From Melanopsichium pennsylvanicum (taxonomy: Eukaryota; Basidiomycota; Ustilaginomycetes; Ustilaginales), in assembly GCA_900208305.1 (NCBI GenBank), contig OAPG01000001.1:1488001-1552000 (forward strand): 64,000 nucleotides of DNA, read 5' to 3'. Positions within the stretch are counted from its first letter, which is position 1. Each line of letters starts with the position of its first letter. A program made the position numbers and the translations under genes. Of this stretch, positions 5,129 through 54,502 are shown one piece after another. The notes under the pieces were generated by a model. It did no database searches, was not told where the DNA came from, and saw only the letters and a program-made list of their open reading frames with translations.

Positions 5129-6432
5129 AATCTGAGTGCATGATTATTGTATTTTTCGACATCATACTTTTGACCCAGATTTTACGGTGGTTGAATACAG
5201 TATATTGCAGTTGAAATCTACGAAGGAGATTGCGGTGGAACTTGGTTGTTCCTGGCTCTGTCACTCATTTTCATCTGATGCAAGGGCGGAGCCAACGCTG
5301 CACTTAAGTCCATCATACTGCGCTGTATGATGGAGAGAGGATGGATAACAATCCAAATATAAATGTGTGCTTACTGTGCATCCTTGACTGTTTGAACAGA
5401 AATTGACGACGTTGGTGACCAGGGGCTGACCATGGTGTCTCCACAGTCACAGTCGTGTGTGCTGTAGAATAAATTTCGATCTTGGGACCTTTGTGTTTTA
5501 GTGTATCCCGACAGGTCCACTCAAGAACGCTTTGATGCCATACTGTGCCTCACTCTGGAACGAATGTGCGCACCTTTTCATTCTGGTGCGCATTCGGCAT
5601 TATCGCCCAGCGTGCATTCAAGCACAGTACAGACACGTACCCTGCGAGATCACATTTCTACTCTGGCCTCAATCCTCTCCCGCGTGCCAAGTCTCCATGG
5701 TTCCGCTGTTTTCGGTTCTCAAGTCCGATCATGAAGCTTCCTTGAACTACAAACAGATGAAATCGAACCAGCTTGAGTCGACTCACAGCTCATATTCGGG
5801 CAGCTGTCTAAAGAGCTGAACGAGGAAAGGAACAAGAGGTGGATCACGTCGTGTGACGAACTCACACGTGTTGTCGGCTGAAGCGGAAAAGCCTTTCTTG
5901 ACCCGACAAGATTGCGACACAGAGTGTGCCATTTTGAGTTTAGACTTCATTCTCCCCTCTTTGACCCTCGTTTTTTATTTTTTATTTTTTATTTATTTAT
6001 TTATTTATTTTTTAATTTTTTTAAAAAACCTTAAAAGTAGACTGCATGAAATGGCATGATGTGCGCTCAGACCCCCACCCTTTCCTTCAATGAGACCCAC
6101 TGCGCTTCGATTAGACGGACGACACATGCATTCCAGGCGGCACCAAGCTAACTAATAATCATATACAGGGGTGCTATTCTCATGAAGAAGGTTTCGGCGT
6201 ACGTTGAGATCCCTATCGCATGGGCAGCCATGCCCTTCAGCCAAGCCAACGCAGTGCGAGTGCGCTTTATCTGTAGCATATATGTACACCGCTCGCTCTG
6301 CTCCTAGCTTCTCCTCCCCCTTCAAGGCTCAGCTTCCTTCTCAGCCTCGGGTCTCTCTTTCCTTCACCCCGCTATCATACATCTCCAGGTCTCAGCTTCC
6401 CGTATTTAGAACATCAGCAACTTTCAGCGAAG
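5129..6432. other. Intergenic region after tRNA-Ala
   Basis: About 1.3 kb with no supported gene. It holds a perfect 10-bp inverted repeat at 5309-5334 (TCCATCATAC, 6-nt loop, GTATGATGGA), a T-rich low-complexity tract at about 5968-6032, and a CATATATG TATA-like sequence near 6278 ahead of the next gene. Confidence 0.55.
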
Positions 6433-43758: not shown

Positions 43759-44011
43759 CAGTTGTAGGGAATGCTATTATTGGCTATTGCGCTGCTGTGA
43801 TGGTATCGTATATACATGAGTTATGGCTTCGCTTGATCTAACTACTAAGCTAGCCGGGAGTTCTGAGCTGGCCGGAAATTGCCGGAAGCTTCAGCTCCGA
43901 GCTATTGGATCTGATTGGTCGGTCTAGGGACTATGTGTCAGTCGGGCTGGTAGTGGTTGGTTTGTTAGGTCTTTGTTGTGTAACGTCGGATCTTCATCGC
44001 GTCGCTTCAAC
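43759..44011 (-). repeat. Copia 3' LTR
   Basis: 253 bp, matching 56043-56295 with two substitutions. Its left boundary could be shifted by two bases because CA precedes GTTG on both sides. The pol stop codon at 44007-44009 lies inside it. Confidence 0.93.
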
Positions 44012-46858
44012 TGCCTCCCTCAACGGGCAAGATGGCTGGCCAACTTGGCCGTTGTCTCTGTGGCTGGATGAGACCCATGCCGTTTCTTGCCTTTCGCAGT
44101 GACTCCTTTCCCACCGGTTTTGTAAAGATGTCTGCTAGGTTGTCCGCTGTATTGATGTACTTGATATTAATTTTGCCGTCTTGCACGTTGTCTCGAATGA
44201 AGTGATATTTTGTGTTGATGTGTTTTAGCTTCCAATGTTGCTGTGGATCTTTGCTTACCTGTATGGTGCCGGTGTTGTCAGACAGGATTGTTGGTGTCCC
44301 TGTGTCAATTCCAATGGCCTTGAATAGTTGCTGAAAGAATAATATTTCTCTGGCTGCTTCCGTTGCTGCAACAAATTCTGCCTCTACTGCTGAAAGGGCT
44401 GTGCAGCGCTGTAGAGCAGATTTCCAAGCTACTAGGTTTCCGTGGACAAACACGGCCGATCCGGATGAGCTCTTTCTTTGAGTCATTGGGTCGCTGGCCC
44501 AGTTTGCGTCGCTATGTGCCAGTAACTGTTCTTCTTCCTTTCTTGAGCCATAGCGGAGACAAATGTCTTGCGTTTGATCGAGGTAATGTAGCACCTTTTG
44601 TGCTGCGTCGAAGTGTTCCTTCGATGGCCGTGTCATATATCGTGCAAGCACGCTAACAGCTTGTGAGATATCAGGTCGGGTACCGTTTGCTAACCACAGG
44701 AGCTTACCTACAATTTGTGGGTAAGCCTTTCGCTCCGCCGGGCTTGCAACTGTAGTGGGTACTGGGATATCTTGGAGTGGGACACTTGACTTCCTACGGC
44801 GTTTATCCAAGTGCTCTTCCAGGATTTGCTTGATGTATGCACTCTGTTCCATGTTGAGCGTTTTGGCCTGACGGTCCCTTGTTAGCTTTATTCCTAGGAA
44901 ATGTGATACTTCTTGGCCATCCTCCATCTTCCATCGTTGCTTGATTTCTTGCTTTATCTTGTTGACGGCCTCCAACTTGGGTGCAATGATCAGGGTGTCG
45001 TCTACGTAGATAACTACTATGGCAAAGTTGTCCCCTGTTCCCCTTGTGTATACGCACGGTGCGCAGTCCACTCGATGGAAGTTTGAACTGCGAAGGAACT
45101 TGTCAAACTCTAAGTGCCATTCCCTTCCGGACTGTTTTAAGCCGTATAAGCCTTTCTTGACAAGATACACCTTTCCTTCGGGTACATTTGACCCGTTAGG
45201 TGGTTTCATGTATATAACGTGCTTGAGTGTTGAGTTTAAGTAGGCCTGAGTTATATCGAGCTGGTGGGTCTCCCAATCACGCTCGACTGCTAGTGCTAGT
45301 AAGCCTCTGATTGCACTGACGGGTGCTACTGGAGCAAAAGTCTCCTCAAAGTCAATTCCTTCACGCTGTGTGAAACCCCTGGCAACCAGTCTTGCTTTGT
45401 GGCGGATGGGGATTCCATCTGCGTCCAGCTTGAGCCTAAGGATTATCCTGGAGTCTACGAGGTTCGCTCCCTCTGGCTTATCCACTATCTCCCAGGTTCC
45501 CATCGCTTCCAATCCTTCTAATTCCTTTCTGATGGCCTCATGCCACTGTTGGGCGTCATCGCCATTGAAAGCTTCCTTCAGCGTTGGTGTAAGGTTTAGC
45601 GTCGCTGACTGGGCTGAGCCAAGCAGCTTTTCCGCCCCCTTTGCCACAAACACCTTTCTTAGCAATCTCTCTGTATTTCCATTTGCCGTGTAGAGTTCTC
45701 CAAGGAGGTACTCGACTTCTTCTTCTTCGTGTTCTGTATTTTCTTCATTTTCTGCACTCTGCGTGTTTATCACTGGTACATCAATGTCTGGCTCCGATGT
45801 GGTTTCAAACTCCAATTCCGGGGGTTCTTCTGTATCATCATACGTATGTTCATCATCTTCGATCGTAAGGTGTTCAACGCCCGTGATCTTGGGGCTTTCG
45901 ACTTGCCTCCTTTGGTGCCATCCCTTTTGCTCGTGGAATGTTGCTGAGTTGCTCCATCGTATTGAGGGGCTATGATCCGGAGTGTAGAACCTCCATCCCT
46001 TGCGTTCTTCATCGTATCCCGCCATGATGCCAGGTATGGCTCTGACTCCGTACTTGCCAACATGGTCTTTCTTTGGTAGGTGGACCCAAGCAAGGCATCC
46101 AAATACGCGCAGTTGCTGTGCCAGCCCGTGGGCTGTTCTTTTGTAAAATTCTTCGTAGGGAATTTTGCCGGTAATCGATGGTGTCAGATTAATCGTGTGT
46201 GCTGCTGCTAGGACTGCGTAGGGCCATAGTTCTTTAGGAACCGCTCGCTGAAACATCATGGCACGTGTTTGCTCTTGTACCAATCTAATTGTTCACTCTG
46301 CCTTGCCGTTTTGCACGCTGGTGTGTGGTACAGTTCGTTGCCATTTGAAACCGATTTCCCTTTCCCATTGTATAGCCGAAAGGTTAAACCACTCTCCTCC
46401 GTTATCGCTACGCAGTTTCATTAATTTCTGTCCAGTAGCGCGTTTGGCAGCTGTTACCCAGTCCTTTAGTGCCTGCAATGCTTCCGACTTCGCTAATAAC
46501 GGCTTGACGTATACGTAAGACGAATAATCGTCAACAGCTACCAATGCAAAATGGTAATTCGGGTGGCCGCGTAGGTCTGTTAGGAGGTCGATATGTACTA
46601 GTTCGAGAGGGGCTGTGGTTGGTTCGATCTTTTTGCTGCTTGTCATTCTTGCCTTTGTTTGTTTTGCTTGGCTGCAGCAGTTGCAGTCTCTTGCTTCGTG
46701 ATATAGCTTTGTTTCTTTGCTTAGGTAGTGTTTTTGGATTTGCTTCGTCTTGTCTCTGCCTGGGTGGCCGAATCGCTCGTGCCAGAGCTTGCTGCTTGCT
46801 GTGTGTGTGCTGCTGATTTCTTCTTTGCTTGCTGTTGGCTTGTTCAATGCGACTGCTG
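44007..46858 (-). pseudogene. pol: Copia pol, 3' fragment (integrase, RT, RNase H) with a premature stop
   Basis: It begins with the GAG-pre-integrase zinc region (WHERFGHPGRDK, CNCC) and the integrase core (HIDLL, RSDNGGEW, catalytic Glu exactly 36 residues later). A TGA at 46293-46295 immediately follows that Glu, where the conserved family motif has Arg, so a CGA-to-TGA change is the likely cause. The frame then continues without interruption for 758 codons: the integrase C-terminal part, reverse transcriptase (SAIRGLLALAVERDWETHQLDI, YVDDTLII) and RNase H (SDANWASD, KLKHINTKYHFIRD) to the 3' LTR. Confidence 0.9.
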
Positions 46859-46860
46859 TG

Positions 46861-47290
46861 TGTTAAGGCTGTAGGGTCTAGATACCGCGGGCGGCTACAG
46901 CCGGGATGGAGGCTACGGGTACGGAGAGGTCGTAGGCGGGGCGACACAGGCGGTCGGGGGTCAGAGCACACTACTGCGTTGCTATAGAGCTAACTAAGTA
47001 ATACATGCGACGAGGTCCGGAGGCAACCTCGTGTCAGGCGGGGGCAGGGTGGTAAGGTACAGGAACTATCGGTCACTTCCCACCGCGGCGTTACAATGTT
47101 AGGTTGCCGACGGTCATATCCTACGTACGGAGGGGCCAGCCGCGGTTGGGCGGTAGGAGGATCGTGTCAGGCCGACCGCTCCGCTGCGAGGGGTCCGGAG
47201 AGGGTCGGTCGGGGCCCAATCACGACGATCGCTCAATCGGGAGGGGGGCCGAGCACCCCCTCTTTGGACTCCGGTTGGTAGGCACTAACA
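46861..47290 (-). repeat. Gypsy 3' LTR
   Basis: 430 bp. A GGGGGG-rich purine tract (coding strand of 47291-47310) abuts it inside the element and could serve as the plus-strand primer. Confidence 0.95.
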
Positions 47291-47523
47291 TTACCCCCCG
47301 GTTCAGGCCGGCTGGTCCCCAGGCGGCTGATAGGACAGGAGGGCGAGGGGGGTCGTACTCCCTCAACCTTAATCCGCGCCAGGGGCGCCTCTCTGTACAA
47401 GTTGCGACGCTCGTCTCGGCAATTTAATCGCGGATGCGCAGCAATGAGGCAATACCACCCACAATGCCTTGGACCGGCGGAATTGACTGTGCGCCATTGC
47501 TCGTGCGTAGCTATCGAGGAGGG

Positions 47524-47530
47524 ATATAAG
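47524..47530 (+). promoter_or_regulatory. TATA-like box of the antisense accessory gene
   Basis: ATATAAG about 65 bp upstream of the chosen ATG, followed by a pyrimidine-rich leader. It lies inside the element, about 235 bp from the LTR, so the gene would have a promoter separate from the LTR. Confidence 0.45.
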
Positions 47531-47594
47531 GATGGGGTTCAACGGGTCTTCCTTCTCGATTTCCCCCATTCTTCCCCATTCTTTTTTTTCCGCA

Positions 47595-49049
47595 ATGTCG
47601 TCGCCACCAGCAGACGCTTCCTTGGATTGTCTTTTTTTTGCAATGTCGTCGTCACCAGTAGACGCTCCCATGGATTCCCCGGCCGACAACCCGTCGGCCG
47701 GTGTCAGTACCGTTCCCCCTCCATCGCCTACGTCCGCGACGGCGGCAGCGTCGGCAACAGCAGCAGCAGCAACAACAACAACAGCACCAACAACAACAAC
47801 AACGTTACCCGCTTCCGGAGGTGAGTCGATCGTGGTTCCGTCGTGATTCGGTTGCAGATGGGGGCCCAGAGGGCCTGACAACCACCGGTCGGTGCCGTGG
47901 AATGGGTTACTGACGTTTGTTCCCTCCCCCTTGTTTTGATTACGACAGATCGGCCGTCGGAGACCTCCGCTGGTCCCATCCGGGGGGTGCGCCGTTCTCC
48001 GCGTGCTCACCTTTCCCGGGGGGCCAACTCGGGCCGTCGCAAGCGCGCCGTGCGTCAACAGTCTGCCGATCCGTTGGCCATTCCTTCCTCTGCATCGACC
48101 AACACTTCCCTCGTCCTGGCGCCCCGGAATTCGATGCCGTGGTCGCGTCCTTCGGTTCCCATCGAGATCACTCCGGAACTCGTTGGTGATGGTAAGTATT
48201 TGTTCCATTGCTGTGTTGATTGGGATCGCTACTGACGTTTGTGTTTCCGTGGCCGATACGACAGACCTTGCCCCGCTATGGGCCGAGACGTGGGGCGATT
48301 GCTACGGCTGCGTATGCGCCGGCGTTGCCTGTGAGCGGGCAGGAGGCAATCTCCGCTGCCGTCGGTGTCAGGGGCAGCACGGGCAACCCTGCGACGCGGA
48401 TATGCGCGGTACGTATTTCCGTCGGGCGTCTGTCGCGATGTCCTGGGTGGTCGGCTGACTCTTGTTCCTCCTTTTGTTTTCCTCGACAGTCCCACCACTT
48501 GGTGGCGCCCAAGGTCCCCTCCGAATGAGGGTTTACGCGTGCTTGCTTGAGAGGTGGAGGTCCGGAGGGGTCGGTCGGCGTCGCCGCCCCCACCCCAACG
48601 TCAGGTTGTCGCTGAGGACACTTGGCGAGATCCCAGAGGAGGAGGAGGAACTGAGGGAGGAGGTGGCTCGGGTGGGCGCGGTGGGTCGGGAGCGGGAGGC
48701 GGCTCGCAAGCAAGCTAGGTCTCGCCCCGACCGTCCAGCCGAGGCTGCCCGAGAGCGGCGTCGCACTCGGGCGCGGGCCCAAGGCCAGCCGGGGGAGTCC
48801 GCTACGGGCCTGGGGGACCTGGGTGCGGCCGTAAGGCGTGCCGAGTCCCTCTTCCACGGGGTGCAGGAGGGGACTGAGTTATTACAACAGGGGCTGGCCG
48901 ACGTGGCTGCGCTGTTGCTGACAGAGTCGCTGAGGACCGGCAGCGAGCGAGAGCTCCGCCGGATCAGCGAGATCCAGCAACTGTCGCAGAACACGCGACA
49001 GCAGGTGGACGTGGTCTGGGCGTGGTTGGAGGGCTTCCTGAGGGACTAG
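47595..49049 (+). CDS. Antisense four-exon accessory gene inside the gypsy element
   Basis: Exons 47595-47820, 47949-48191, 48265-48408 and 48490-49049 give 390 aa. All introns are GT..CGACAG with a CTGAC branch-like site, all are phase 1, and each join keeps the frame open. The N-terminus is Ser/Ala/Thr/Pro-rich (a poly-Ala/Thr run). Exon 2 encodes a basic Arg-rich segment (RGVRRSPRAHLSRGANSGRRKRAV). Exon 3 encodes a Cys cluster (CYGCVCAG, then ACERAGG, then CRRCQGQHGQPC; C-x2-C-x-C-x4-C-x8-C-x2-C-x6-C), probably zinc-binding. Exon 4 encodes long charged helices (EEEEELREEVARVGAVGRERE) and a terminal helix (ISEIQQLSQNTRQQVD). Earlier in-frame Mets exist at 47532; 47595 was chosen because a TATA-like box lies at 47524. 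Transcription converges with pol (183 bp between stops). No family recognised; nucleic-acid or protein binding is a guess. Confidence 0.7.
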
Positions 49050-49232
49050 CCCCGGGGCCCCTCCTCGAATGCATTTGTTTTCTTTTCTGTCGCTTGCGTG
49101 TGTGTGTGTCCGTGTGTGGGAGTGGGGGTGAGGGGAGCCCGACCGGGTCTCCCACCCCAGAGGTTGGGGACCGGAGGGGTTTTGGCTCCGGCGGGGGGGT
49201 CTCCCGACGGCGACCGTCGCTCGTATCCGTGC

Positions 49233-52200
49233 CTAACGCCGGGTAGGGGCCGGCTTGGTCGGGTTTGCGGCGTGGTACGCAGCGACCAGATCCGGGGCGC
49301 GGTCCACGTCTTCCGCCGGGACCCAGCTTGGGGGGTACCCTACCCAGGAGACCTTGTACTGTAGGCGTCCGGCGCGGCGGCGGGAGTCCAATACGCCCTC
49401 GACTTCGAAATTGGCGTAGTCGTCCTCCAGAGTAGTTGGTTGGGGGGCGTCGCTGGACTCCCTGACTCCGTCGGGGTATGGCTCCAGCATCTGTACGTGA
49501 AAGACGGGATGGACCTTCCACGACGGAGGCAGGAGGAGTCGGTAGGCTCGGTCGCTAATCACCTCGTCGACTTTGAACGGGCCAGCGAGGGGGTTGGAGA
49601 GCTTGTGGGAGGGTCGGTCGCTGCGGAGGTGCTTGGTACGGAGGAGCACCAGGTCCCCCCGGCGGAACGAGACGTCGCTCCTGCAACGGTTAAACCACTT
49701 CGCGACGGCAAGGTTGGCTTTGGCGATGGCGTCCTGGCACACCCGCACTTTATCCGCCGACGGAACGTTGGAGGTGGCCGGGGGGATGGAGGGGTGTGCC
49801 CGAGGTGCAAATGTGAAGCAAGCTATAGCCGGGGCGATGGTTGTGGTCGCCGACGGTCTTTGGTTCAGCGCGAGCTGGGCTGTCGGCAGGAGGGTTGCCC
49901 AGCCGCTGTGGTCGTAGGCCGTATAGAAGCGGAGGAACAACTCCAGCGTCTGGTTGGCTCGCTCGGTCTGGCCATTTGTTTGAGGGTGGTAGGCCGACAA
50001 GTAAGACCCTTTAATCCGGAGGGCCCGGAGGAGTTCCGTCCAAACGGAAGCTACAAACGTGGTTCCTCGGTCAGATACAATGGTGTCCGGGAGGCCAAAG
50101 TATGAAAAGACGTAGCGGTGGAGCTGGTACGCCAAAGTCTCCGCTGTATCGGTTTTGTTTGCAGGAATGAAGACCACAAACTTGGTGAGGCGGTCGACGA
50201 CTAAGAGAATGGAGTTGTAGGTGGTGCCGTTGGCAAGGGAGGGCGGGAGGTCAGTGATGTGGTCCATGGTAATAGTGGACCACGGCCGATCGGGAGGGAC
50301 CAACAGGAGAAGGTAGCCGTGGGGTTTGTGACGGGGGTGTTTTGCCCTTCGGCAGGCCGCGCAAGAGGCGACATAGCTGTTGGTGTCCTGCACCATGGTT
50401 GGCCAGTAAAAACGTTGACGCATGAGATGGAGGGTCGTCTTGCGGCCAGGATGTCCCGCCGTAGGGTGGTCGTGCAGTAGGTGGAGTGCCTTGTCCCGTA
50501 ATTGGGGTGGCAGGTAGACGTGACCCTCTGTGGTGTACGGGACACCATCGCGGACGGCAACGTTTGGGGGGAGGTTGGCCGCTTTCCGGAGGGTTTCGAT
50601 CCACTCCGTAGGCAGGGGGTCCAAGGAGTGTACGCCGGCTGCCCTTGCAAACAAGTTTGCAGGGAGGAGAGTGGCTTGGTTGGCGGGGTCTGGGCGCGAC
50701 GGTCCGTCGGGGAACAAGTCGTGCCGGCGACTCAGAGCGTCGGGGCGGACGGCCTCCTTACCTGGACGGTAGTGGAGGACGAAGTCGAACTCAGCCAGGT
50801 CGGCTTGCCAGCGGGCTTGGCGACGGTTGAGTTGTCGCTTCATCTGAAAATACTGGAGCGCCTGGTGGTCGGTGTAAATGAGGAACGGTCGGGTGAGGCC
50901 ATGGAGGTAGTGTCTCCAAGCGCCGCAGGCGTCTACGATAGCCAGGAGTTCCTTGTCGTGGATTTCGTAGTTACGCTCCGCCGGGATCATCTTTCGCGAC
51001 CAGTATGCCACAGGATGGAGGGTATGCGAGCGGCTGTTGGGCTCGGCGCTCGCGTCGGCGCCCGGCTGTGGGTGCCACTGCGACAGCACGGCGGCTACCA
51101 CAGCATCGCTCGCGTCTGTTTCAACGACGGTGTAGAGCGTTGGAGAGAAGTGCCGGAGGATAGGGGCAGAGGTGAACGCTTCTTTCAGCCGGTTGAAGGC
51201 TGCCGTTGCTTCTGGGGGCAGATCTACCTTTCCGGAGGCTCCTCCTTTCAGGAGGTTGGTGAGGGGGGCCGCTACACGAGAATAGTGGCGGATGAAGCGA
51301 CGGTAGAAGTTGGCAAATCCGAGGAAGACTTGGATCTGTCGGATCGACTGTGGTGGCGGCCACTCCAAGACTGTACTGACCTTGGTCGGGTCCATGGAGA
51401 GGCCGTCGGGACTGACGAGGTAGCCGAGGAACTCGACGGAGTCGGTGGGGAATTCGCATTTGTCCGGAGCGCAATACAGCTGATGCTTCCGTAATCGATC
51501 CAACACTTGGCAGACGTGGTGGTGGTGGTTGGCCTCGTTGTCGGAGAAGACTAGGATGTCGTCCAGATATACGATGACGGACACGTCTAAGAGATCCGAC
51601 AGCACGTGGTTCATGAGCCGTTGGAAGGTCGCCGGAGCGTTGCAGAGGCCGAACGGCATGACGAGGTATCCGTAGCTGCCGTAGCGCGTGCGGAATGCGG
51701 TCTTCCATTCGTGGCCGGGGGCGATCCGGAGGAGGTTGTAGGCACCCTTCAGGTCGAATTTAGTGAAGATCTTGGCCGTCGCCAGCCGATCAAGGTGTTC
51801 GGAGATGAGGGGGATCGGGTAGCGATCCTTGACGGTGATGGCATTGAGGGCGCGGTAGTCCACACACGGCCGGAGGCGACCGTCCTTCTTTGGTACAAAA
51901 AGGAGGGGCGCGGCAGCTTGGCTACTCGACGGTCGGATGAAGCCAATGGCCTGCATCTTCCGGAGGTAGTTCCGGAGCTCCTCTTGTTTGCGGTGCGACA
52001 GTGAGTAGAGTGCGCCGTAGGGAGGGGTTTTGCCAGCCTCCAGGTTGATCTCGTGGTCGTGTGGGCGGTGGGGAGGCAATTGGTTGGCCCTCTCGGCGTC
52101 GAAGACGTCGGCGTACTCGCGGTACTCTGGCGGTAGGACGGCGAGGTCGGTCGCGGAAGCTCGGAGGGGCAGTAGCTCCTCTTCCGGTTCTGGGAGGACC

Positions 52201-52829
52201 AGCAGGTCCTCCTCAGTGGAGACCAGCTGTCGCCGGCCGACCAAGTTGTGGAGTTCGTTCTTTTCGATTTTGGGGTTGGAGGGCACCGTGACGGTGTGGG
52301 GGACCCGGAGGTCCCACGTACGGAGGGTATAGTTTGGCTCCGGCCTGGCGGCCTCGACCCAATCCATCCCCAACAGCACGTCGTGGGAGGTCATGGGGGT
52401 GATGAAGAGTCGGTGGCGTGAGGTGATGCAGTGGTTGTTGATGATGATATCCACCGCCGCGTGGCGACTGATGGCGGCCGACATGCCCTGGAGGAATGTG
52501 GCGTGGACGGATTTACGGAGGGAGTGGGTAGGAATGTTGGCCGTTGCGACCATTTCGGGAGTAATGAAAGAGGCGGTGGCGCCGGTATCGAGCAAGGCAA
52601 GGCCTTGCGTGTCGCCGACGCTTACCAAGCATTCGTAGGTTGGTAAGGTAGGGTGTCGATGGATCCGGAGAACGGATCCCTCTTGCTCCACGACGGGAGT
52701 GTCGGTCCGGTGGGCTGCCCAGAATGCTGCGGCAAGCACCCGGAGCTGGCTTAGGTTGTCGATGGGTTCGGACCGAAGGAACCCATCGACCCTTAGTTTC
52801 CCTCCGGGGGATCCTCCAAATCCGATAGG
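49233..52829 (-). CDS. pol: Gypsy Pol polyprotein with C-terminal chromodomain
   Basis: The open frame starts at 52829 and is presumably entered by frameshift at about 52797; there is no need for its own start codon. Domains in order: aspartic protease LDTGATASFI (encoded near 52590); reverse transcriptase with FDLKGAYNLLRI, MPFGLCNAPATFQRLM and YLDD (near 51560); RNase H with VETDASD and YTDHQALQYF; zinc-binding integrase N-terminus (H-x3-H..C-x2-C: HDHPTAGHPGRKT, CAACRRAKH); integrase DDE core (TITMDHITD, IVSDRGTTF, NGQTERANQ); and a chromodomain (FEVEGVLDSRR..QYKVSWVGYPPSWVPAEDV). The chromodomain is thought to direct integration to particular chromatin. All catalytic residues seem intact. 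Confidence 0.95.
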   Translation of the reverse strand, partial: PIGFGGSPGGKLRVDGFLRSEPIDNLSQLRVLAAAFWAAHRTDTPVVEQEGSVLRIHRHPTLPTYECLVSVGDTQGLALLDTGATASFITPEMVATANIPTHSLRKSVHATFLQGMSAAISRHAAVDIIINNHCITSRHRLFITPMTSHDVLLGMDWVEAARPEPNYTLRTWDLRVPHTVTVPSNPKIEKNELHNLVGRRQLVSTEEDLLVLPEPEEELLPLRASATDLAVLPPEYREYADVFDAERANQLPPHRPHDHEINLEAGKTPPYGALYSLSHRKQEELRNYLRKMQAIGFIRPSSSQAAAPLLFVPKKDGRLRPCVDYRALNAITVKDRYPIPLISEHLDRLATAKIFTKFDLKGAYNLLRIAPGHEWKTAFRTRYGSYGYLVMPFGLCNAPATFQRLMNHVLSDLLDVSVIVYLDDILVFSDNEANHHHHVCQVLDRLRKHQLYCAPDKCEFPTDSVEFLGYLVSPDGLSMDPTKVSTVLEWPPPQSIRQIQVFLGFANFYRRFIRHYSRVAAPLTNLLKGGASGKVDLPPEATAAFNRLKEAFTSAPILRHFSPTLYTVVETDASDAVVAAVLSQWHPQPGADASAEPNSRSHTLHPVAYWSRKMIPAERNYEIHDKELLAIVDACGAWRHYLHGLTRPFLIYTDHQALQYFQMKRQLNRRQARWQADLAEFDFVLHYRPGKEAVRPDALSRRHDLFPDGPSRPDPANQATLLPANLFARAAGVHSLDPLPTEWIETLRKAANLPPNVAVRDGVPYTTEGHVYLPPQLRDKALHLLHDHPTAGHPGRKTTLHLMRQRFYWPTMVQDTNSYVASCAACRRAKHPRHKPHGYLLLLVPPDRPWSTITMDHITDLPPSLANGTTYNSILLVVDRLTKFVVFIPANKTDTAETLAYQLHRYVFSYFGLPDTIVSDRGTTFVASVWTELLRALRIKGSYLSAYHPQTNGQTERANQTLELFLRFYTAYDHSGWATLLPTAQLALNQRPSATTTIAPAIACFTFAPRAHPSIPPATSNVPSADKVRVCQDAIAKANLAVAKWFNRCRSDVSFRRGDLVLLRTKHLRSDRPSHKLSNPLAGPFKVDEVISDRAYRLLLPPSWKVHPVFHVQMLEPYPDGVRESSDAPQPTTLEDDYANFEVEGVLDSRRRAGRLQYKVSWVGYPPSWVPAEDVDRAPDLVAAYHAANPTKPAPTRR
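52758..52802 (-). promoter_or_regulatory. -1 programmed ribosomal frameshift signal between gag and pol
   Basis: On the coding strand the heptamer G GGA AAC (52802-52796) is in the X XXY YYZ phase of gag. The gag stop TAA and two bases form a 5-nt spacer, followed by a perfect 12-bp hairpin, GTCGATGGGTTC / GAACCCATCGAC (52790-52779 and 52769-52758) with a 9-nt loop. Pol is in the -1 frame and is open from 52829, so it overlaps the end of gag by about 35 nt. All parts of a classic signal are present. Confidence 0.85.
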
Positions 52830-54028
52830 TCACTGTCGGGGTTGGAGGCTGACCCGTCATCCATGGGGTTGACGAGTATAGTCCCGGAATCGTTGTCAAA
52901 TGAAATAGCATGTGCCCGGAGAGTTTGTGTTTGGGGCGCCTTTGGGCAGTCACGGGCCAAATGGTCGCTGCCACCGCAGCCGAAGCACTGCCTGTTGGTC
53001 CGTCGGTGCTGGCGGAGGCGTTCCGCCGCATCACGCGTAGGGTCCTTGGCCGGTAGTGGAGGTCGTTCCATTTTGCGGGGTCCCTCCGGGGGCTCTCGTT
53101 TGGCCGTCACGGCTGGGAGGGGCGGTCGGTGTCGCAGCTGTGACTCCGCGGGTCTTGTCGTGGCCTCCTGTATCACCTGCATCCGGCGCTCCGTGACAAT
53201 GGCGGCGTTGATGAAGTCACGGATGTTGGTCATCGGCACGTGGGTGAGCTTTTCCCGTAGGCGCGGCCGGAGGCTTTGTTCGAACAGCATCAACGCCTGC
53301 TGCTGGTCGGTCAGGTGCGATTTGGCCGTCAGCGACATGAACTCCGCCGCGTGCTCCGATACTGATCCCTTCTGGCGGAGGGCATTCAGTTGGAGGCGTG
53401 CGGTGTAGCTGGGGTTGGGATCGCCATGGACGCGACGGAGGTCGGCGCAAAAGGCCCTCCAGGAGCTCATCCAGGGCGGATCCTCCCCCTCCTGTTGTCG
53501 CACATTGCAAATGCGGGTTCGTGGTTTGCCCGTCATGTTGCCGATGGCAAACATGATGCGACGGGCATCCGTCAGAAACTTGGAGGGATTAGCCTCGAAG
53601 TTGAGTTTGCATTGATCCAAGAAGTCCTCCAGTTTGTCTTGGCTGCCGTCCCATTCCGGAGCCTGGAGTCGAATCTCTGGCTTGCGGGGCGCGGCCTCCA
53701 CGTAGACGGGGGCTACGGTTGGCGGGGGGACCTGGGCAGCGGTTGCTCCTTGGTAGTGCTGAGAAGACTCCGGTCTAGGTTGATCCTCCCTGGGGAAGAA
53801 GGCAGCCTCTAGCAGAGCGGTAATGCGCCGCTGTTGTTCAGAGGTTTCACGCAGAAGCGCCAGGATATCCATTTGCCCTTGGACCAAGGTGGTCAGGGCG
53901 GCGGGCGGTTTGCCCGAGGGTGCAACAACGCTGGCGGGCTCGTCTCCGCTGGGGGAGATGGTGGGAGCGTCTCCCTCCGCTTGGGGGGAGGCGTCCGTTT
54001 GGTTTCGTCGGTTGGAGCGTGTACTCAT
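52793..54028 (-). CDS. gag: Gypsy Gag
   Basis: 411 aa from the first Met outside the LTR (MSTRSNRRNQ). A retrotransposon capsid domain lies in the middle (KLEDFLDQCKLNFEANPSKF, SSWRAFCADLRRVHGDPNP, SVSEHAAEFMSLTAKSHL). One CCHC knuckle, CFGCGGSDHLARDC, lies near the C-terminus, after a Pro/Arg-rich linker. The last codons GAG GGA AAC TAA contain the slippery heptamer that leads into pol. The open frame extends into the LTR, but the LTR part is not protein-like. Confidence 0.92.
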   Translation of the reverse strand: MSTRSNRRNQTDASPQAEGDAPTISPSGDEPASVVAPSGKPPAALTTLVQGQMDILALLRETSEQQRRITALLEAAFFPREDQPRPESSQHYQGATAAQVPPPTVAPVYVEAAPRKPEIRLQAPEWDGSQDKLEDFLDQCKLNFEANPSKFLTDARRIMFAIGNMTGKPRTRICNVRQQEGEDPPWMSSWRAFCADLRRVHGDPNPSYTARLQLNALRQKGSVSEHAAEFMSLTAKSHLTDQQQALMLFEQSLRPRLREKLTHVPMTNIRDFINAAIVTERRMQVIQEATTRPAESQLRHRPPLPAVTAKREPPEGPRKMERPPLPAKDPTRDAAERLRQHRRTNRQCFGCGGSDHLARDCPKAPQTQTLRAHAISFDNDSGTILVNPMDDGSASNPDSDLSDLEDPPEGN

Positions 54029-54056
54029 CTTGGTTACGACGTCGTCCCGTGGGGAG

Positions 54057-54066
54057 GTCGCATGTA
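54057..54066 (-). promoter_or_regulatory. Gypsy primer-binding site, probable self-priming type
   Basis: One base inside the 5' LTR the transcript reads TACATGCGAC. The transcript-sense LTR segment 54218-54209 reads GTCGCATGTA, its exact complement. No match to a tRNA 3' end was evident. This is the arrangement of Tf1-type elements, where the 5' end of the RNA folds back to prime minus-strand synthesis. Confidence 0.55.
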
Positions 54067-54067
54067 A

Positions 54068-54497
54068 TGTTAAGGCTGTAGGGTCTAGATACCGCGGGCG
54101 GCTACAGCCGGGATGGAGGCTACGGGTACGGAGAGGTCGTAGGCGGGGCGACACAGGCGGTCGGGGGTCAGAGCACACTACTGCGTTGCTATAGAGCTAA
54201 CTAAGTAATACATGCGACGAGGTCCGGAGGCAACCTCGTGTCAGGCAGGGGCGGGGTGGTAAGGTACAGGAACTATCGGTCACTTCCCACCGCGGCGTTA
54301 CAATGTTAGGTTGCCGACGGTCATATCCTACGTACGGAGGGGCCAGCCGCGGTTGGGCGGTAGGAGGATCGTGTCAGGCCGACCGCTCCGCTGCGAGGGG
54401 TCCGGAGAGGGTCGGTCGGGGCCCGATCACGACGATCGCTCAATCGGGAGGGGGGCCGAGCACCCCCTCTTTGGACTCCGGTTGGTAGGCACTAACA
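54068..54497 (-). repeat. Gypsy 5' LTR
   Basis: 430 bp; three substitutions relative to 46861-47290. A 10-nt segment within it (54209-54218) is an inverted match to the sequence just inside the element (54057-54066). Confidence 0.95.
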
Positions 54498-54502
54498 CTG
54501 TG

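Follow-up and report, generated by a model that had tools for sequence, protein, structure and literature searches.

A predicted three-intron antisense gene between pol and the 3' LTR of a chromovirus of the smut fungus Melanopsichium pennsylvanicum

Antisense genes of LTR elements and the smut locus

Additional genes antisense to gag-pol are described from plant and fungal gypsy elements and from retroviruses. In plant gypsy elements they are called aORF-3R (antisense extra ORFs), among them maize Grande gene23, rice RIRE2 and the Retand TRP28 proteins (PMC7264820, PMC11963269). According to these papers, the Grande product is nuclear and its gene has its own promoter, and the TRP28 domain of Retand is predicted to be DNA-binding. 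The word intron has no occurrence in either paper. Among fungi, the Boty-like elements of Botrytis cinerea carry an additional antisense gene, brtn (Zhao et al. 2011, as cited in PMC8365987, PMC4227169 and PMC5987419). Finally, HTLV-1 to -4 make spliced antisense transcripts for HBZ and APH-2, APH-3 and APH-4, whose products are nuclear (APH-3 also cytoplasmic) and act on LTR transcription (PMC10186651).

The smut gene resembles each of these in some respects and differs in others. Like the plant aORF-3R, it is antisense, lies between pol and the 3' LTR and occurs in most, if not all, copies of its family; the plant genes differ in their hosts, and no Pfam domain was found in the smut protein. 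Like brtn, it is antisense and belongs to a fungal gypsy element that has a chromodomain, but the host of brtn is an ascomycete. With HBZ and the APH genes it has in common the antisense orientation, splicing (predicted for the smut) and a location towards the 3' LTR of a retroelement, and, if the role proposed below is right, a nuclear product with an effect on LTR transcription. Those genes differ in belonging to a retrovirus and in that their transcription begins in the 3' LTR; HBZ is a bZIP protein, and the APH proteins lack a bZIP. The sequence-only reading of this DNA had cited antisense ORFs of some plant gypsy elements as the known parallel. That much stands, but it was too narrow: such a gene is also known in the fungal Boty elements, and spliced ones are known in HTLV. 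Among the titles and abstract openings returned by literature searches that covered a minority of subscription journals, none described a fungal LTR element with a spliced gene in antisense.

The window is the 64,000-nucleotide stretch C1:1488001-1552000 of the Melanopsichium pennsylvanicum assembly (21.1 Mb, 61 contigs). On its minus strand it contains a Ty3/gypsy chromovirus at 46861-54497, identified by its LTRs and target-site duplication and by a gag-pol with integrase whose pol ends in a chromodomain (Table 1). A second element, with pol frames that look copia-like by eye, occupies 44007-46862 on the same strand and directly adjoins the gypsy element, which probably inserted within it.

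Table 1. Features of the chromovirus and of its predicted antisense gene, in window coordinates (dN/dS by Nei-Gojobori)
Feature	Positions	Strand	Remarks
Target-site duplication CTGTG	46856..46860	.	second copy 54498-54502
3' LTR	46861..47290	-	430 bp, TG..CA ends; self-blastn 99.3% vs 54068-54497
TATA box GGGATATAAGG	47521..47531	+	predicted, antisense gene; GGATATAAGG at 47522-47531, kept in 36/36 copies covering the site
Exon 1	47643 (or 47595)..47820	+	low-complexity Ser/Pro/Ala/Thr; further in-frame ATGs at 47532 and 47595; dN/dS about 1
Intron 1	47821..47948	+	128 nt; GT 36/37, AG 37/37; CTRAC 37/37
Exon 2	47949..48191	+	Arg-rich segment 47978-48055; dN/dS 0.53
Intron 2	48192..48264	+	73 nt; GT and AG 37/37; CTRAC 37/37
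Exon 3	48265..48408	+	seven-Cys cluster 48300-48392; dN/dS 0.41
Intron 3	48409..48489	+	81 nt; GT and AG 37/37; CTRAC 37/37
Exon 4 to stop TAG	48490..49049	+	charged region, then predicted helix pair 48807-49043; dN/dS 0.37
pol open frame	49233..52829	-	protease, RT, RNase H, integrase, chromodomain (Pfam)
gag open frame (stop to stop)	52793..54196	-	Ty3 capsid, CCHC knuckle
5' LTR	54068..54497	-	430 bp; partner of 46861-47290

Structure, conservation and constraint of the antisense gene

Read on the plus strand, antisense to gag-pol and placed between pol and the 3' LTR, the four exons join into an open frame of 374 codons from the ATG at 47643. An alternative in-frame start at 47595 gives 390 codons, in agreement with the four-exon gene of about 390 codons proposed by the sequence-only reading. 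The stretch between these two ATGs resembles a duplication of ~50 nt by eye; among the 36 copies with coverage there, 13 are without it. The three GT..AG introns fall where that reading had placed them, each with CTGAC in the window copy, and the TATA-like box it had noted 5' of the gene is there too. At the level of sequence the antisense gene is confirmed as real.

The region or parts of it are contained in 40 loci of the genome (L001-L030 and L051-L060). Four of these were dropped before the count: L001, which is the window itself, and the incomplete or rearranged L002, L051 and L060. The alignment consists of the window and the other 36. Fully intact copies, with a start, an open frame, GT-AG sites and no internal stop, make up 32 of the 37. 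The five defective ones are L024 (a frameshift and stops), L053 (a stop), L059 (truncated), L014 (AT at the intron 1 donor) and L018 (ATT at the start). In every copy, CTRAC lies 33-40 nt upstream of the end of each intron. The bodies of the introns are variable, with length shifts of 1-2 nt (128-130, 72-73 and 80-81 nt across copies). Net length changes in the exons are multiples of three in all copies except L024 and L059; those in exon 1 fall in triplet repeats, and we give them no weight. A separate genome search with exon 4 returned 42 matches, 38 of them full length, of which two have a stop.

All three introns are present in 37/37 aligned copies. The element's genomic RNA would be the other strand, on which the introns of the antisense gene would stay unspliced and be copied whole at each retrotransposition. 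The retention fits this strand logic, since splicing of the sense RNA cannot see introns of the opposite orientation, and it supports the earlier suggestion that an element can carry an intron-containing gene through retrotransposition in this way.

Three copies of the window family, L036, L040 and L041 (the same as L006, L010 and L011), have an internal deletion over the gag/pol junction, at element positions of about 5566-6379 or 5534-6198. They are probably non-autonomous, and the antisense gene in them is intact despite the deletion. Beside another copy, L038 (C8:45276-53176), there are two additional tandem LTR pieces (positions 199-430). A genome LTR search, in which 40 of 210 candidates were scored, was left out of the copy counting.

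The gene is closely tied to its pol. The genome has 36 pol C-terminal matches of the window family at 96-100% identity, a count that excludes four short fragments (34-72 residues, 85-97%), and exon 4 lies at 186-276 bp from all 36. Conversely, 36 of the 38 full-length exon 4 places have an adjoining pol. Within the M. pennsylvanicum genome, then, the gene travels with the same pol, one of the checks that the sequence-only reading had proposed, and most, if not all, copies of the family have it.

The other sequence check was dN/dS among copies. Taken over 148 pairs at no more than 95.5% identity, which are not mutually independent, it is 1.01 for exon 1, below one in each of the other exons (Table 1) and 0.43 for exons 2-4 together. 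The latter value is the lowest among the six frames, and the proposed frame is the sole one without stops; the other five range from 0.65 to 1.43 and have 3-7 stops in the window copy. Codon-wise reading of the introns yields 0.55-0.81, and a short 5' flank yields 0.45 in one of its frames. The chance that the gene is an artefact, with long open frames arising from GC-rich DNA and exons chosen by eye, appears negligible. The region does have other long frames, for example 47369-48301 on the minus strand (310 aa), but an artefact is contradicted by the frame-specific dN/dS and by the conservation of splice and branch sites across copies.

We also compared nonsynonymous changes to a null in which each change and its trinucleotide context were kept (500 shuffles; 35 copies, without L024 and L059). 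The context-matched nonsynonymous ratio over all exons is 0.71 (142 N, 90 S; P 0.004, or 2/500 shuffles). By exon it is 0.67 for exon 2 (P 0.038), 0.58 for exon 3 (P 0.054) and 0.59 for exon 4 (P 0.004). Exon 1, at 0.99, has no visible constraint by this measure or by dN/dS. By the same measure pol gives 0.65 (20 copies, several partial), a value close to that of the antisense gene. Two comparisons weigh against constraint. There is no nonsynonymous depletion in changes common to at least three copies (57 N/27 S, versus 60 N/42 S for singletons). Premature stops are not significantly depleted either (1 stop-creating change observed versus 2.6 expected, P 0.265), and that comparison is not used as support. 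Constraint at the protein level on exons 2-4, close to that on pol, is supported by these comparisons of copies.

Base changes in this part of the element are enriched in CpG transitions: among the 37 copies over 47443-49150 they account for 164 of 378 changes, at 332 of 1,071 C/G positions, which suggests methylated, silenced copies. Such a concentration is one point for a reading in which the antisense transcript itself is the regulator, formed by convergent transcription, pairing with the sense RNA as dsRNA and silencing or modulating the element, with the frame secondary; RNA transcribed from the gene would in any case be the complement of the sense RNA in its 3' part. Without a protein, however, one would not expect constraint on codons, cysteines that never vary or conserved splice sites, and we consider this reading very unlikely. 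If a protein is made, an anti-silencing role for it is possible in view of the CpG pattern.

A captured host gene, carried as a passenger without function for the element, would account for spliceosomal introns, which are typical of host genes, and for the apparently unconstrained exon 1. Against it, no host paralogue was found in the genome, all 42 exon 4 matches being at least 84% identical at E up to 10, and constraint is close to that of pol. Outside the genome, a protein search found 7 entries, from Melanopsichium only, among ~8,000 candidates sharing most words. A profile search found 9, one under the name 'Melanopsichium pennsylvanicum 4', and no relative outside Melanopsichium among the 7,985 candidates sharing most words from 5.8 billion proteins. 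This origin is improbable in our estimation. Viral contigs were searched with three queries, namely pol, exon 4 and an alignment of family B (see below), and gave no relative; no relative appeared in a scan of plasmids.

Gene models have been deposited for several copies (MEPE_05065 and others). Those for P0001-P0004 have the exon 1/exon 2 junction as proposed here, with exon 2 spliced straight to exon 4; P0006 includes exon 3. Treating exon 3 as intronic, as in the first four, is at odds with its codon constraint and invariant cysteines. One further model, P0007 (MEPE_01710), starts with exons 2-3 of the antisense gene and has PF00565 and PF00567 (SNase and Tudor); it is either a fused gene model or an exonisation of an element relic.

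The predicted protein and its proposed role

The Arg-rich segment, the seven-cysteine cluster and the long charged helices of the sequence-only reading all reappear in the spliced product: a basic stretch in exon 2, the cysteines in exon 3, and a charged region followed by a predicted helix pair in exon 4. The cluster reads C-x2-C-x6-C-x8-C-x2-C-x7-C plus one further cysteine. All seven are invariant in the 35/35 copies compared, as is an eighth cysteine in exon 4. Six of the seven match the spacing C-x2-C-x6-C-x5-12-C-x2-C-x6-8-C, which is that of the binuclear zinc cluster (Zn2Cys6, Gal4-type). When the exon 3 peptide was shuffled 200,000 times, Zn2Cys6 spacing arose in 79 shuffles, and in 48 with the stricter linker of the pattern just given. 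The fungal Zn2Cys6 proteins also resemble the smut protein in having C-x2-C-x6-C / C-x2-C-x7-C with helices some distance after. The smut protein differs in its one extra cysteine and in the few basic residues between its first cysteines, and it has no match to the Pfam zinc-cluster family at E up to 10. Pfam as a whole gave no match for the window protein at E 0.01, and looser limits gave only the sub-cut-off New_glue (E 7.1) and DUF3439 (E 0.025, P0006). Exon 3 alone had no match in Pfam, and sequence searches of the PDB had none either. An AlphaFold2 model of exon 4, from seven sequences, contains a confident helix pair near the C terminus (pLDDT 76-89 per block, residues 111-185), with low confidence outside it and a mean of 62. 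As modelled, the helix pair is probably a dimerising one.

Gene structure, constraint, linkage to pol and intron retention are supported, all at the level of DNA comparison. Beyond that, we infer transcription, splicing, nuclear location, binding of zinc and DNA, and a regulatory role. The nuclear zinc-binding regulatory role draws on the basic segment, the cluster and the helices, and on analogy to Grande, Retand and HBZ. The gene would probably have its own internal TATA promoter and be convergent with pol. Its spliced product would combine the basic segment, the Zn2Cys6-like cluster and the C-terminal helix pair; it would reside in the nucleus and act in trans on the DNA or chromatin of the element, tuning LTR transcription or opposing silencing. 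As an explanation of the whole, a protein-coding three-intron accessory gene for a nuclear trans-acting regulator of the element is the one we hold to be probable, with moderate confidence.

The same gene could have another job, with its product a trans-acting factor on RNA or particles, in nuclear export, packaging or partnership with Gag or integrase, and not on DNA or transcription. The basic segments and the helix pair would suit RNA or protein binding equally well, and no DNA-binding family was recognised. But the cysteine spacing is that of the binuclear zinc cluster and not of a CCHC knuckle, and a comparable cluster recurs in the antisense genes of other families. We rate such a role as rather unlikely, though worth keeping in mind beside a nuclear regulator of the element.

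Antisense genes in other smut chromoviruses

Three further chromovirus families of M. pennsylvanicum have an analogous antisense gene with a cysteine cluster. Their identities are given relative to the window's pol end. Family B (pol 39-42%, 35 places) has the opposite-strand gene ..WPSWQCARCAKLGIP|CFASAFADVLSAGGKGRTPRACVHCHLGGHKKC.., and its exon 1 gives 46 genome matches: 39 of family B at 78% or more, one short fragment, and six at 37-40% that belong to C or D. At a distance of up to 1.5 kb, the gene accompanies 30 of the 35 pol places, and family B pol accompanies the gene at 30 of its 39 places. The dN/dS of the family B gene is 0.16-0.51 at dS 0.08-0.33, from three pairs of three copies, two of which still contain a stop. 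Family C (L064, L065) and the single copy D (L066, pol 36%) have a similar antisense gene. By eye, B, C and D have one predicted intron position in common, in phase 2 and just 5' of the third cysteine, whereas the proteins of B and C share only 37-43% identity across some 75 residues. A common intron position at that identity means that a spliceosomal intron may have survived very many rounds of reverse transcription.

A search with family B exon 1 found 36 proteins: 22 from Melanopsichium, 11 from Ustilago (U. hordei, U. nuda, U. tritici and Ustilago sp.) and 3 without an organism name. The models have both halves of the cluster in 7 of the 36 and the first half in 17, and several stop at the intron. 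Annotation of U. hordei in PMC9603552 used RNA-seq. Pfam places DUF5559 in one of nine members of the family B/Ustilago alignment (E 0.045, below cut-off), and an AlphaFold2 model of the family B protein is too poor for use (mean pLDDT 41).

An hhalign comparison of the window protein with a family B and Ustilago profile, from which C and D are absent, gives P 0.56, with most window-protein rows skipping exon 3; with exon 3 included it gives P 0.042 at a probability of 1.2%, which is not significant. The likeness that we claim between the window gene and those of B, C and D is limited to position, orientation, the presence of introns and a 3+3 layout of cysteines.

Family C differs in its linkage. 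Antisense sequence lies within 1.5 kb of two of its 19 pol places (43-44%), complete at one and partial at the other, and the remaining 17 have none. One of these 17, L061 (C3:163900-167100), was read directly: compared with L064 (C23:211900-214400) it has lost about 1.4 kb internally, and the two arms overlap by 17 bases. There are five full antisense exon 1 frames without stops in this family. Beside three of them, the match to a 300-residue pol query is confined to residues 219-288 and includes a TGA, and at least the remaining integrase end is therefore missing there. Since 17 of 19 pol copies are without the gene nearby, it can be lost in cis without stopping amplification. This argues against a requirement for the gene in cis for transposition, and the pattern fits either a trans-acting product that copies share or a gene that is simply dispensable. 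One may tentatively read the smut chromoviruses as a group that encodes spliced antisense trans-acting zinc-cluster regulators, kept long with their introns by element-level selection, although we would not call this probable. The present state of family C, with the gene and an intact pol mostly on separate copies, is what a shared trans-acting product would predict, and as a part of the group reading it is just as tentative.

By its sequence, the predicted smut antisense gene is a variant of the known antisense accessory genes, within what looks like a wider pattern in smut chromoviruses. It provides a clear case, in a fungus small enough for experiments, of an LTR retrotransposon whose reverse strand retains a predicted protein gene with several introns, the splice signals themselves being conserved. 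The plant antisense ORFs, the fungal brtn and the retroviral HBZ can thereby be compared as a single design, in which a gene in antisense lies towards the 3' LTR. It also suggests that some 'uncharacterized proteins' of smuts, the MEPE_ entries and perhaps related Ustilago entries, are retrotransposon accessory proteins. The long-standing question of what these antisense proteins do becomes testable.
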